A DNA stretch of 64,000 bases from Caballeronia concitans (GTDB taxonomy: Bacteria > Pseudomonadota > Gammaproteobacteria > Burkholderiales > Burkholderiaceae): positions 165,359 to 229,358 of the forward strand of contig NZ_FCNV02000011.1 in the NCBI RefSeq assembly GCF_001544615.1, read 5' to 3'. The notes under the pieces are model-generated. The model saw only the letters and a list, made by a program, of their open reading frames with translations, ran no database searches and was not told the origin of the DNA. The position numbers and the translations under genes were made by a program. How positions within the stretch are numbered: position 1 is the first letter of the stretch; every line of letters begins with the position of its first letter. Of the stretch, positions 17,376-30,631 are shown piece after piece.

Positions 17376-18488
17376 TTGAATCGAGCCGCATCGCCGCGCC
17401 GCGCCGCGACCGCCAGCGACGCCCAGCCGCTTTCGAGCGAAGTCTCGATGACGCCCGGGCGGCGCGTGTGGCTGCGCTTCAGGCGCAATCGGCTGGGCTA
17501 CTGGAGTCTCGTCGTGTTCGTCGCGGCGTTCGTCCTGAGTCTCGCGGGACCGCTGTGGTCGAACGACAAGCCGCTCGTCGTGCGGTATCAGGGGCAGCTC
17601 TATTTTCCGCTCGTGAAGACGTACGCCGAGACGACGTTCGGCGGCGACTTCCCGACGCCCGCCGATTATCTCGATCCCTTCGTGCGCGACCGCTTCAACG
17701 CGCCGGGCAACTTCGCGGTGTATCCGCCGAATCACTACTACTACGACACGCTCAACTATTTCTCGAAGGGCTCGAATCCCGCGCCGCCATCGCGCGAAAA
17801 CTGGCTCGGCACCGACGATCGCGGCCGCGACGTCTTCGCTCGGCTGCTTTACGGGTTTCGCGTGTCGGTGCTCTTCGCGCTGGTGCTGACCGCCATCGGC
17901 ACGGTGCTCGGCGTGGTGGCGGGCGCGGTGCAGGGCTACTTCGGCGGAAGGACGGATATCGTCGGGCAGCGGCTCATCGAAATCTGGAGCGCGTTGCCGG
18001 AGCTTTATCTGCTCATCATCTTCGCGTCGATTTTCGAGCCGAGTCTCGTGCTGCTGATCGTGCTGTTGTCGCTGTTCGGCTGGATCGGCCTGTCGGACTA
18101 CGTGCGTGCGGAATTCCTGCGCAATCGCACGCAGGACTACGTGCGCGCCGCCCGCGCGATGGGGCTCTCCAATTGGCAGATCATCTGGCGCCACGTGTTG
18201 CCCAATAGCCTGACGCCTGTGATCACGTTCCTGCCGTTTCGCATGAGCGGCGCGATTCTCGCGCTCACGAGCCTCGATTTTCTCGGTCTGGGCGTGCCGT
18301 CGCCGACGCCATCGCTCGGCGAACTGCTCGCGCAGGGCAAGGCCAATCTCGACGCGTGGTGGATCTCGCTATCGACCTTCGGCGTGCTCGTCGCGACGCT
18401 GCTGTTGCTCACGTTCATGGGCGACGCGTTGCGCAACGCGCTCGACACGCGCATCGCGGATGCGGTGAAAGCGGGAGGCGGGCAGTGA
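17376..18488 (+). CDS. yejE: ABC transporter permease (YejE-like)
   Basis: This is the second permease of the peptide importer, 370 aa. The N-terminal helix (GYWSLVVFVAAFVLSLAG) is followed by a periplasmic domain with YFPLVKTYAETTFGGDFPTP, typical of YejE, then NWLGTDDRGRDVFARLLYGF and the EAA loop ARAMGLSNWQIIWRHVLPN. The start is uncertain. TTG 17376 lies 2 nt after the yejB stop and has GGAG eight nt upstream. ATG 17448 (MTPGRRVW) has no comparable site. The TTG is preferred. Confidence 0.9.
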   Translation: MNRAASPRRAATASDAQPLSSEVSMTPGRRVWLRFRRNRLGYWSLVVFVAAFVLSLAGPLWSNDKPLVVRYQGQLYFPLVKTYAETTFGGDFPTPADYLDPFVRDRFNAPGNFAVYPPNHYYYDTLNYFSKGSNPAPPSRENWLGTDDRGRDVFARLLYGFRVSVLFALVLTAIGTVLGVVAGAVQGYFGGRTDIVGQRLIEIWSALPELYLLIIFASIFEPSLVLLIVLLSLFGWIGLSDYVRAEFLRNRTQDYVRAARAMGLSNWQIIWRHVLPNSLTPVITFLPFRMSGAILALTSLDFLGLGVPSPTPSLGELLAQGKANLDAWWISLSTFGVLVATLLLLTFMGDALRNALDTRIADAVKAGGGQ

Positions 18489-20912: not shown

Positions 20913-20951
20913 AAAAAAGCCCTGCTTCCTCGTGAACGCAGGCTTTTTTTT
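20913..20951 (+). terminator. Terminator of the NlpC/P60 gene
   Basis: AAAAAAGCC-c-TGC pairs with GCAGGCTTTTTT around a 12-nt loop, with one bulged C, and runs into a T8 tract. Confidence 0.9.
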
Positions 20952-21021: not shown

Positions 21022-21050
21022 TTGCACGCGCTACTAAAAGCCGTTATAGT
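21022..21050 (+). promoter_or_regulatory. Promoter of the leuA transcript
   Basis: TTGCAC (21022-21027), a spacer of exactly 17 bp and TATAGT (21045-21050) fit sigma70 well. The expected start is 21056-21059, which coincides with the ATG of the leader peptide at 21057. Confidence 0.7.
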
Positions 21051-21056
21051 TTTCGA

Positions 21057-21143
21057 ATGAACTTTTCTTCGTTCCCCCTCTCGTCTTTCCTGGCTGGTGC
21101 GTCGCTACGCGCACTATCGCTACTAGCGCCGCTCGCGCGCTGA
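21057..21143 (+). CDS. Leucine-rich leader peptide upstream of leuA (candidate attenuator peptide)
   Basis: This 28-codon open frame from ATG 21057 to TGA 21141-21143 ends LRALSLLAPLAR and contains seven Leu codons. Five of them lie in the last 12 codons. Four of the seven are CTA, a rare codon in this GC-rich genome (CTA CGC GCA CTA TCG CTA CTA). This is the pattern expected of a leu-operon leader peptide, where ribosome stalling at Leu codons senses charged tRNA-Leu. It has no visible Shine-Dalgarno sequence and sits at the predicted transcription start, so it may be read from a leaderless mRNA. It is about 130 nt upstream of leuA. It could be a chance frame, but the codon clustering argues against that. 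Confidence 0.65.
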   Translation: MNFSSFPLSSFLAGASLRALSLLAPLAR

Positions 21144-21195
21144 TTCTTCTCGCCTCCCGTCTGCTCGTTCAAGGTTTTCGACGCCAGCGGTGGCG
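21125..21195 (+). promoter_or_regulatory. Possible alternative RNA hairpins in the leuA leader
   Basis: Hairpin 1 is AGCGC (21125-21129) with GCGCT (21137-21141), inside the end of the leader frame. Hairpin 2 is CGCCA (21182-21186) with TGGCG (21191-21195). The segment CGCCGCT (21127-21133) can instead pair with AGCGGTG (21186-21192), joining parts of both. Mutually exclusive pairings fit attenuation. However, hairpin 2 is short and has no T-run right after it, so the terminating element is not clear. Confidence 0.35.
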
Positions 21196-21271
21196 CGAAC
21201 ACCCGGATTCCGTTTTGTCGTTTCATCCCGATACTCCCGACAATCAATAAATCTCCCCACAGGAGCCGAAC

Positions 21272-22816
21272 ATGGCAGCAGACAAGTTGATCATCTTCGA
21301 TACGACCTTGCGCGACGGCGAGCAGTCCCCCGGCGCTTCGATGACGAAGGACGAAAAGATCCGCATCGCGAAGCAGCTTGAGCGCATGAAGGTCGACGTG
21401 ATCGAAGCGGGTTTCGCCGCCAGCTCGAACGGCGACTTCGACGCGATCCACACGATCGCATCGCTCGTGAAGGACAGCACGGTTTGCTCGCTCGCGCGCG
21501 CCAACGACAAGGACATCCAGCGCGCCGCCGATGCGCTCAAGCCCGCCAACCAGTTCCGCATCCATACGTTCATCGCCACTTCGCCGCTGCATATGGAGAA
21601 GAAGCTGCGCATGTCGCCGGAGCAGGTGTACGAACAGGCGCGGCTCGCTGTGCGTTTCGCGCGCAAGTTCACCGACGACGTCGAGTTCTCGCCGGAAGAC
21701 GGCAGCCGCTCGGATATCGACTTTCTGTGCCGCGTGCTCGAAGCGGTCATCGACGAAGGCGCGCGCACGATCAACATCGCCGATACCGTGGGTTACGGCG
21801 TGCCGGAACTCTACGGCAACCTCGTGAAGACGCTGCGCGAGCGCATTCCGAATTCCGACAAGGCGATCTTCTCCGTCCACTGCCACGACGACCTCGGCAT
21901 GGCCGTGGCCAACTCGCTCGCGGGCGTGCAGATCGGCGGCGCGCGTCAGGTGGAATGCACGATCAACGGCCTCGGCGAGCGCGCGGGCAATACGTCGCTC
22001 GAAGAAATCGTGATGGCGGTGAAGACGCGCAAGGATTACTTCGGTCTCGATGTCGGCATCGATACGACGCAGATCGTGCCGACTTCGAAGCTCGTGTCGC
22101 AGATCACCGGCTTCGTGGTGCAGCCGAACAAGGCGGTGGTCGGCGCGAATGCGTTCGCGCACGCGTCGGGCATCCATCAGGACGGCGTCCTGAAGGCGCG
22201 CGACACCTACGAAATCATGCGCGCGGAAGACGTGGGCTGGAGCGCGAACAAGATCGTGCTCGGCAAGCTGTCCGGCCGCAATGCGTTCAAGCAGCGTCTG
22301 GAAGAACTCGGCGTGGCGCTCGAATCCGAAGCCGACGTGAACGCCGCGTTCGCACGCTTCAAGGATCTCGCCGACCGCAAGGCCGAAATTTTCGACGAAG
22401 ACATCATGCAGATCGTCTCCGAGGAATCGGCGGAAGCGCAGGCCAAGGAACATTTCCGCTTCGTTTCGATGAAGCAGCATTCGGAAACCGGCGAGCAGCC
22501 GCAAGCGAAGGTCGTGTTCGCGGTCGAAGGCACGGAAGTGACCGGCGAGGCGCGCGGCAACGGTCCGGTCGATGCGACGCTGCACGCGATCGAATCGAAG
22601 GTGGATAGCGGCGCCGAACTCGTGCTGTACTCGGTCAACGCGATCACCACCGGCACGCAGGCGCAGGGTGAAGTGACGGTGCGTCTGTCGAAGAGCGGGC
22701 GGATCGTGAACGGCGTCGGCACCGATCCGGATATCGTCGCTGCGTCCGCGAAGGCGTATATCGCGGCGCTCAACAAGCTGCACTCGAAGGTCGAGAAGCT
22801 GAATCCGCAGCTTTGA
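21272..22816 (+). CDS. leuA: 2-isopropylmalate synthase
   Basis: LeuA condenses 2-ketoisovalerate with acetyl-CoA, the first committed step of leucine synthesis. The protein is 514 aa. The catalytic HMGL-like TIM barrel starts with [14 protein letters not shown] (residues 8-21, metal and substrate contacts). [18 protein letters not shown] provides the His/Asp metal ligands, and [18 protein letters not shown] is also typical. The C-terminal LeuA regulatory domain (about 390-514) binds leucine for feedback inhibition. A Shine-Dalgarno GGAG precedes ATG 21272. The leader peptide upstream suggests transcription or translation control by leucine as well. It is monocistronic, with a strong terminator. 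Confidence 0.97.
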
Positions 22817-22839: not shown

Positions 22840-22868
22840 AAAAAGCCCTCTGAACGAGGGCTTTTTTG
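22840..22868. terminator. Terminator between leuA and the convergent lipoprotein gene
   Basis: The stem AAAAGCCCTC/GAGGGCTTTT with loop TGAAC is followed by a T6 tract on the plus strand and is A-flanked for the minus strand. It probably works in both directions. Confidence 0.9.
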
Positions 22869-24953: not shown

Positions 24954-25014
24954 GATGCAACCCACGGCACGGCCTTTCTTCCGTGACCGCCTGTCTGTTT
25001 CAAAGGAAAAGCAA

Positions 25015-25284
25015 ATGTCCGTAGCAGAAATCAAGAAGTCCGACGTCGTCGCTGAGTACGCGCGCGGCGCCAACGATACCGGCTCCCCCGAAGTGCAAGT
25101 CGCACTGCTCACGAGCCGCATCAACGAACTGACCGTCCACTTCAAGGCCCACACGAAGGATCACCACAGCCGCCGCGGTCTGCTGCGCATGGTGAGCCGC
25201 CGTCGCAAGCTGCTCGACTATCTGAAGGGCAAGGATGCGGATCGTTATCGCTCGCTGATCGAAAAGCTGGGTCTGCGCAAGTAA
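25015..25284 (+). CDS. rpsO: 30S ribosomal protein S15
   Basis: S15 binds 16S rRNA early in 30S assembly. The protein is 89 aa, the normal length. [40 protein letters not shown] and [12 protein letters not shown] are family signatures. The start ATG 25015 has AAGGA 8 nt upstream. It lies upstream of pnp, as in most proteobacteria, with a strong terminator in between. Confidence 0.98.
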
Positions 25285-30546: not shown

Positions 30547-30631
30547 GCCGACGTGGTGAAATTGGTAGACACGCTATCTTGAGGGGGTAGTGGCGAAAGC
30601 TGTGCGAGTTCGAGTCTCGCCGTCGGCACCA
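30547..30631 (+). tRNA. tRNA-Leu (anticodon GAG)
   Basis: This is a class II tRNA with acceptor stem GCCGACG/CGTCGGC, anticodon stem CTATC/GGTAG with loop TTGAGGG (anticodon GAG, reads CUC/CUU), a short extra arm and T-arm GCGAG-TTCGAGT-CTCGC. The discriminator is A and CCA is encoded (30629-30631). Confidence 0.96.

Follow-up and report, generated by a model that had tools for sequence, protein, structure and literature searches.

On the forward strand of the window (the whole 64,000-nucleotide stretch of Caballeronia concitans DNA analysed here), a short leucine-rich frame precedes leuA, with 128 nt between its stop and the leuA start at 21272. The features of this locus are collected in Table 1. 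Read from its ATG, the frame at 21057-21143 (+) translates as MNFSSFPLSSFLAGASLRALSLLAPLAR followed by a stop. A first-pass annotation made from the sequence had described 28 codons with seven Leu codons, five of them among the last 12 codons and four of them CTA. We confirmed this description, and the run CTA CGC GCA CTA TCG CTA CTA is present in the frame as it was quoted. CTA had also been called rare, and it accounts for 30 of 1503 Leu codons (2%) within 38 long window ORFs picked mechanically by length, not by annotation. At least four CTA codons within 12 codons occur in just two stretches across six frames of the 64 kb, one being the leader frame. The second CTA run, at 17735, looks like a mere shadow frame of consecutive TAC codons.

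Judged from its surroundings, leuA looks monocistronic; hairpins with long T-runs are visible by eye before the unit (~20913-20951) and after leuA (~22840-22867). The window frame at 24955-25284, downstream of leuA, is presumably rpsO, and the leuA-rpsO neighbourhood may be kept across relatives. Two relatives have sub-threshold Rfam S15 leader matches downstream of leuA (L018 3189-3311, L016 3201-3307). Among the 11 long ones of the 55 tRNA matches in the genome, nine fetched from elsewhere and two inside the window, the tRNA-Leu genes tag, taa, caa, cag and gag each turned up once. The gag gene lies inside the window, at 30547-30631, and the other four lie elsewhere in the genome. We count the existence of a tRNA-Leu(tag) gene in favour of a leucine-sensing leader.

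The region of the predicted promoter 5' of the frame is among the most conserved blocks of the genus alignment. A simple consensus promoter scan found no sites, and so did not list the TTGCAC/TATAGT pair. In the 147 loci where the layout was detected (see below), the -10 box is separated from the ATG by 7 nt (78 loci), 6 nt (63), 8 nt (five) or 5 nt (one); the gap is thus 6 or 7 nt in 141/147, with a detector window of 5-8 nt. Given this spacing the frame is probably leaderless, with transcription predicted to start at or beside the A of the ATG; such a start would make a Shine-Dalgarno sequence 5' of the frame impossible. The first reading had missed this probably leaderless start.

Table 1. 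Features of the leuA leader locus, in window coordinates
Feature	Position	Strand	Remark
Predicted -35 box TTGCAC, 17 nt from the -10 box	21022..21027	+	Largely conserved in genus alignment
Predicted -10 box TATAGT, 6 nt 5' of ATG	21045..21050	+	Spacing recurs in detected loci
Leader peptide frame, 28 codons and stop	21057..21143	+	Translation in text; recurs in relatives
Leu codons	CTC 21078, CTG 21090, CTA 21105, CTA 21114, CTA 21120, CTA 21123, CTC 21132	+	
Control codons CTA	21105..21125 (at 21105, 21114, 21120, 21123)	+	CTA conserved at these positions in relatives
Hairpin S1 (GUGCG / CGCAC), around the first CTA codon	21097..21114	+	Five pairs, paired in 61 to 65 of 65
Hairpin S2 (AGCGC / GCGCU), overlapping the frame end, then a U-rich stretch	21125..21141	+	Six pairs
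Stretch X, pyrimidine-rich, directly 3' of the stop codon	21144..21170	+	Predicted competitor for the S3 3' arm
Hairpin S3, nearly invariant in the genus, without an adjoining U-tract	21173..21203	+	Paired in 58 to 65 of 65
leuA Shine-Dalgarno AGGAG	21261..21265	+	Conserved in genus alignment
leuA, 2-isopropylmalate synthase, regulated gene of the proposal	21272..22816	+	LeuA 97% identical to Caballeronia hypogeia LeuA

Distribution and codon choice of the leader frame

We collected the 450 nt 5' of leuA (shorter at contig ends) from 239 loci, and 230 were left after nine duplicates (L001, L111-L118) were removed. The sample comprises the window, 29 loci found through the peptide (L082-L110) and loci found through LeuA. 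The latter are 80 loci from named genomes, 80 from the family (80 of 129 genomes with a match) and 40 from other families of the order (40 of 136 genomes with a match, hand-chosen for family spread). Some species are represented twice by identical upstream sequence (e.g. L002/L097, L009/L180), which leaves fewer than 230 distinct loci. Genera carrying g-numbers and groups named '-like' were assigned by likeness to named loci. A locus was scored positive if it had a -10 box, 5-8 nt, and an ATG opening a frame of 12-45 codons with at least four Leu or at least three CTA codons within a 12-codon stretch.

This detector was positive in 147/230 loci, compared with 5/690 dinucleotide shuffles, a spread across the order that was absent from the first reading. 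Among the 200 loci found through LeuA only, 118 were positive (46/80 named, 56/80 family and 16/40 other families), and six genera sampled in this way were positive throughout (42/42: g25 11, g11 10, g13 3, g3 8, g24 4, g12 6). When the promoter rule was dropped, a Leu-rich frame was found in 161 real loci and 78 shuffles; the rule was satisfied by 147/161 of these real frames and by 5/78 of the shuffled ones. The presence of this layout before leuA in many Burkholderiales loci is not due to chance. In the other families many frames terminate in LLLRLAR or LLLRPAR directly before the stop, and among their 115 Leu codons CTG accounts for 66 and CTA for eight. By a rough measure that omits two short loci, the nearest upstream open frame is closer when the leader is absent (median 53 nt, 81 loci) than when it is present (118 nt, 147 loci). 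Seen from this arrangement, leuA in loci lacking the leader appears as if transcribed within an operon.

In the relatives closest to the window, TATA[GT]T is followed after 6 nt (32 loci) or 7 nt (35 loci) by an ATG and 20-35 codons with at least two CTA in 67 of 73 Burkholderia-type loci; these 73 exclude three named Paraburkholderia, none of which carries the frame. The codon choice within the 67 peptides depends on position. Counting from the stop, Leu codons at -12, -11, -9 and -8 are CTA in 130/131 cases, whereas at positions -17 to -20 of the same peptides CTA is used in 18/115. Elsewhere the CTA share is 52/61 at -6, 19/26 at -16 and 32/65 at -3, with positions that hold Leu in less than a quarter of the loci left out of these counts. 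This contrast within the same peptides indicates that the codon, rather than the residue alone, has been selected, and it is the best evidence of codon selection that we have. The amino acids are weakly constrained (pN/pS 0.70 in 29 own-genus leaders); therefore the peptide itself matters little. Distinct indels are a multiple of three in 5/5 cases inside the frame and in 14/56 cases 3' of the stop, which is weak support for the frame because the alignment held intact frames only. L090, which was left out of that alignment, has a one-base gap inside the frame.

L090 is also the single negative among 32 g1 loci. Otherwise the detector was negative in 5/13 g20, 4/5 g8 and 6/8 g10 loci and in all three named Paraburkholderia (L005-L007). 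The first-pass annotation had proposed aligning relatives and had named loss of the frame among close ones as evidence against a leader; such loss is found in part of them (5/13 g20, 3/3 named Paraburkholderia). Otherwise the frame, the CTA codons and the hairpins recur in relatives while neighbouring positions vary, and for this reason a leucine leader peptide is the best reading of the locus. Several Paraburkholderia-type loci retain, by eye, the promoter and parts of the downstream hairpin. The TATAGT promoter is kept and the frame lost in L005, L006, L007, L142, L147, L148, L151 and L152.

Leader hairpins and terminators across lineages

Three hairpins recur in the leader RNA of the window's lineage. 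In S1 one pair varies between U-G (34), U-A (26) and C-G (5) and is paired throughout, and the pairs of S2 are intact in 60 to 64 of 64-65 loci, one of them occurring as A-U and G-U as well as G-C. S3 has a predicted stability of -15.6 kcal/mol and ends 57 nt before the leuA Shine-Dalgarno. The fold of the whole leader is no better than that of shuffles (z -0.43).

We folded 65 distinct, related leaders in an equilibrium model with a ribosome-sized mask. The competition between S3 and pairing with X was scored by summed pairing, which replaced a fixed S3 register that ran low outside its own genus. With the mask at the stop codon, S3 wins over X pairing in 63/65 leaders; with the mask at the first or last CTA it wins in 13/65 and 11/65, respectively, and without a ribosome in 13/65. 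Leaving the ribosome out of the model gives a picture like that of stalling. When the mask was lengthened by 4 nt, S3 had the advantage in 64/65 (stop), 13/65 (first CTA) and 25/65 (last CTA). The gain from the stalled to the stop position exceeds four pairs in 54/65 real leaders, versus 21% of 390 in which X had been shuffled letter by letter. With this shuffling as its control, the models support the hypothesis that the position of the ribosome may set which of two mutually exclusive helices forms. In the modelled stalled state of g11 the S3 arm pairs partly with the frame end instead of X. We set aside a candidate antiterminator, R2:Y, formed by the frame end and the S3 loop and 3' arm; L145 breaks its pairing by eye and, except in g11, it is minor in folding. 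When a looser hairpin-switch test was applied to all lineages, the stop position exceeded the first by 0.3 in 15 of the 130 loci that had a hairpin. The test gave little stall-dependent change outside g20 and often picked hairpins other than the terminator or S3.

To the question of the output step, the lineages of the order give different answers. We called a terminator canonical when at least five perfect pairs followed by TTTT lay between the frame and leuA, a rule used without a shuffle control. Such a terminator follows the frame in 33/33 Comamonadaceae-like, 14/14 Cupriavidus/Ralstonia-like and 8/8 Polynucleobacter loci (55/55), and in 0/6 Oxalobacteraceae-like, 1/16 other-family and 0/3 remaining loci. 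In Burkholderia s.l., the lineage of the window, it was found between frame and leuA in 0/67. The first-pass annotation had read the leader as a counterpart of the attenuators of leucine operons. Of that reading the leucine leader peptide stands, whereas classical termination attenuation is unsupported for the window's lineage, because no canonical terminator was found there.

The 5' arm of the terminator is complementary to the frame end over at least 6 nt in 27/33 Comamonadaceae-like (shuffled tails 0.217), 13/14 Cupriavidus/Ralstonia-like (shuffled tails 0.256) and 8/8 Polynucleobacter loci (shuffled tails 0.083). At a threshold of at least 5 nt the Comamonadaceae-like count is 33/33, with arms cut by a pattern chosen on sight; an earlier count, with the arm badly cut, had been 18/33. 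The complementary letters differ by lineage (ACGGGC, GTCGGG, TTGGGGC or CTGGGGT). In these three sister lineages the complementary segment is, as predicted from sequence, a classical antiterminator lying between the control codons and the stop. Since three sister lineages have both a terminator and a complementary frame end, the attenuation reading is strong for the family as a whole.

A scheme that would cover the whole order is conceivable, although we regard it as speculative. Its sensing half, a leaderless start with Leu codons near the stop, would be old and kept, and its output half would have been exchanged between lineages. In the Comamonadaceae-, Cupriavidus/Ralstonia- and Polynucleobacter-like lineages the output would be an intrinsic terminator together with an antiterminator of its own. 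Burkholderia/Caballeronia and the other sampled families would use a terminator-less and probably Rho-dependent helix switch, 15 of the 16 detected loci of those other families having no canonical terminator. Under such an exchange the CTA control codons would be a later refinement, because the other sampled families use mostly CTG. Five loci from distant families (L211, L219, L225, L227, L228) have, by eye, a C- or pyrimidine-rich stretch 3' of the leader stop and after it a hairpin of unrelated sequence without a U-tract.

Proposed mechanism and rival output steps

We consider it likely that a leucine-sensing leader peptide controls leuA through the position of the ribosome on the leader, which probably lets the cell sense a shortage of leucine. 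RNA polymerase would begin at or beside the AUG, as the promoter suggests, and the frame would be read as a leaderless message. With ample leucyl-tRNA, the ribosome would reach the stop codon and cover the start of X, so that S3 could form and leuA would be turned down. Under a shortage of charged tRNA-Leu, the ribosome would wait at the CTA codons, leaving X free to pair with the 3' arm of S3; S3 would then be absent and leuA expressed. Our results cover the frame, its recurrence, its codon choice, the spacing to the promoter and the mutual exclusion of the two RNA forms in the folding models; to these the scheme joins steps that we infer, namely translation of the frame, the response to leucine, the sign of control and the last step.

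For that last step our first choice, held tentatively, is Rho, because formation of S3 leaves X mostly bare and because many sampled families have C-rich stretches 3' of the stop. After a finished peptide S3 would hold its own 3' arm, leaving X, as a C-rich and G-poor stretch, bare for Rho to load and stop transcription before leuA, and stalling would hide X in a helix. In the window model the unpaired fraction of X is 0.88 when the ribosome stands at the stop, where the mask itself covers part of X, and 0.43 when it stands at the first CTA. The near lack of canonical terminators in three groups (0/67 Burkholderia s.l., 0/6 Oxalobacteraceae-like, 1/16 other-family) points the same way, as do the C-rich stretches, which were judged by eye. 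Passages of PMC1262725 also weakly predict Rho for actinobacterial cys leaders that lack terminators. The base composition of X is less favourable to Rho. In Burkholderia s.l. the excess of C over G in X does not surpass that of its shuffled spacer (1/67 at the 5% level), and the enrichment found in 4/6 Oxalobacteraceae-like and 4/16 other-family loci is also present in 8/8 Polynucleobacter, which bear terminators. A weak intrinsic terminator, either S2, which overlaps the stop codon and has a U-rich tail, or S3 with a distant U-run, is a more doubtful output. S2 is well paired among relatives and was listed as terminator-like at 21124-21142, with the tail ATTCTTCTCG, by a loose scan that gave two sites on both strands of 401 bases versus 0.5 expected. 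In the model it is blocked by a mask at the last CTA or at the stop and not by one at the first CTA. This tail is nevertheless a poor U-tract, and the canonical-terminator test covered only the region after the stop codon, which excludes S2. S3 is stable and hardly varies within the genus, and in the window UUUU lies 9 nt 3' of it, but this U-run is separate from the hairpin, and by eye g11 loci keep S3 without a TTTT after it. Terminators with long T-runs flank leuA in the same genome.

Action on the translation of leuA, by opening or closing its ribosome-binding site rather than through transcription, is a third and somewhat less probable candidate. It would fit the lack of a canonical terminator in the window's lineage (0/67) and the distance of 57 nt from the end of S3 to the leuA Shine-Dalgarno, and actinobacterial leuA leaders have been proposed to pair with the Shine-Dalgarno (passages of PMC1262725). 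However, no conserved pairing of the Shine-Dalgarno was seen, and a CTCC/GGAG pairing present in Caballeronia is, by eye, not kept in g25 and g11. That the conserved element is the RNA itself, as an sRNA or a protein site, with the frame incidental, we regard as very improbable. Part of Paraburkholderia, lacking the frame, does retain the promoter along with some of the downstream RNA, and action in trans is described for the attenuator RNA and peptide of Sinorhizobium trpL (passages of PMC7298713). Conservation at the leuA leader is, on the other hand, specific to the codon CTA, and Leu-rich frames of otherwise different sequence occupy the same place in many lineages. Overall, the best reading of the window leader is an attenuation-type leucine sensor, with Rho as the tentative output.

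Comparison with known systems

The Rfam family of the enterobacterial leucine leader (RF00512, Leu_leader) has no match at the gathering threshold in the window, and 14 relatives yielded none with E up to 0.1; between 20700 and 21700 a scan reaching E of 1 gave only two unrelated sub-threshold families and no hit to RF00512. A DNA search of plasmids gave no match. A survey of proteobacterial attenuators is said to have been published by Vitreschak in 2004. Vitreschak 2004 is cited in PMC6123439, and the Rfam Leu leader is used in PMC3766115, according to passages of these papers. Leaderless transcripts are known in Burkholderia cenocepacia (PMC4603805) and Cupriavidus metallidurans (PMC7563307), in passages of main texts that do not name leuA; neither leucine nor leuA is mentioned in passages of the main text of PMC2965389. 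A literature search in which subscription journals were thinly covered found no description of a leaderless leuA leader, and an earlier description is possible.

Attenuation by leucine is a textbook case in enterobacteria. As in the enterobacterial leu attenuator (leuL), the window has a short peptide before leuA with rare CUA control codons, and the proposed control has the same sign, stalling leading to expression. The E. coli leuL leader has 28 amino acids (passages of PMC6123439) and four consecutive CUA codons, associated with pausing (passages of PMC8384417), and in the Salmonella leu leader a change of CUA to CUG lowers sensitivity (PMC1183508, in a passage citing Carter 1986). Rare CTA is therefore not distinctive of the window leader, since passages of PMC1183508 and PMC8384417 describe rare CUA in the enterobacterial leader as well. 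Several features set the window leader apart from the enterobacterial one: a probably leaderless start, a solitary leuA, CTA codons that are spaced out instead of consecutive, the lack of a canonical terminator after the frame in its lineage, and the lack of an Rfam match.

The actinobacterial LEU element likewise has a leader peptide with a run of leucines before leuA, but is reported to form a pseudoknot, in whose base stem the Leu codons pair with the leuA Shine-Dalgarno, a comparison made by description (passages of PMC1262725). The mycobacterial cys leaders in the same paper resemble the window leader in having their codons near the stop, no conserved terminator hairpin and a weak prediction of Rho; they differ in sensing cysteine, and the passages describing them contain no competing helices. 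A leaderless precedent is offered by Sinorhizobium meliloti trpL, where the 5' end of the leader RNA is the ATG of the leader frame, although that leader belongs to an alpha-proteobacterium, senses tryptophan through a 14-aa peptide and has a described transcription terminator (passages of PMC7298713). Set beside these systems, the locus brings together the enterobacterial sensing idea and a probably leaderless start across an order, with a terminator gained or lost between close lineages, and it poses two testable questions. One is how, in an attenuator, a ribosome loaded directly onto an AUG can stay in step with RNA polymerase; the other is by what means attenuation proceeds when a canonical intrinsic terminator is missing.
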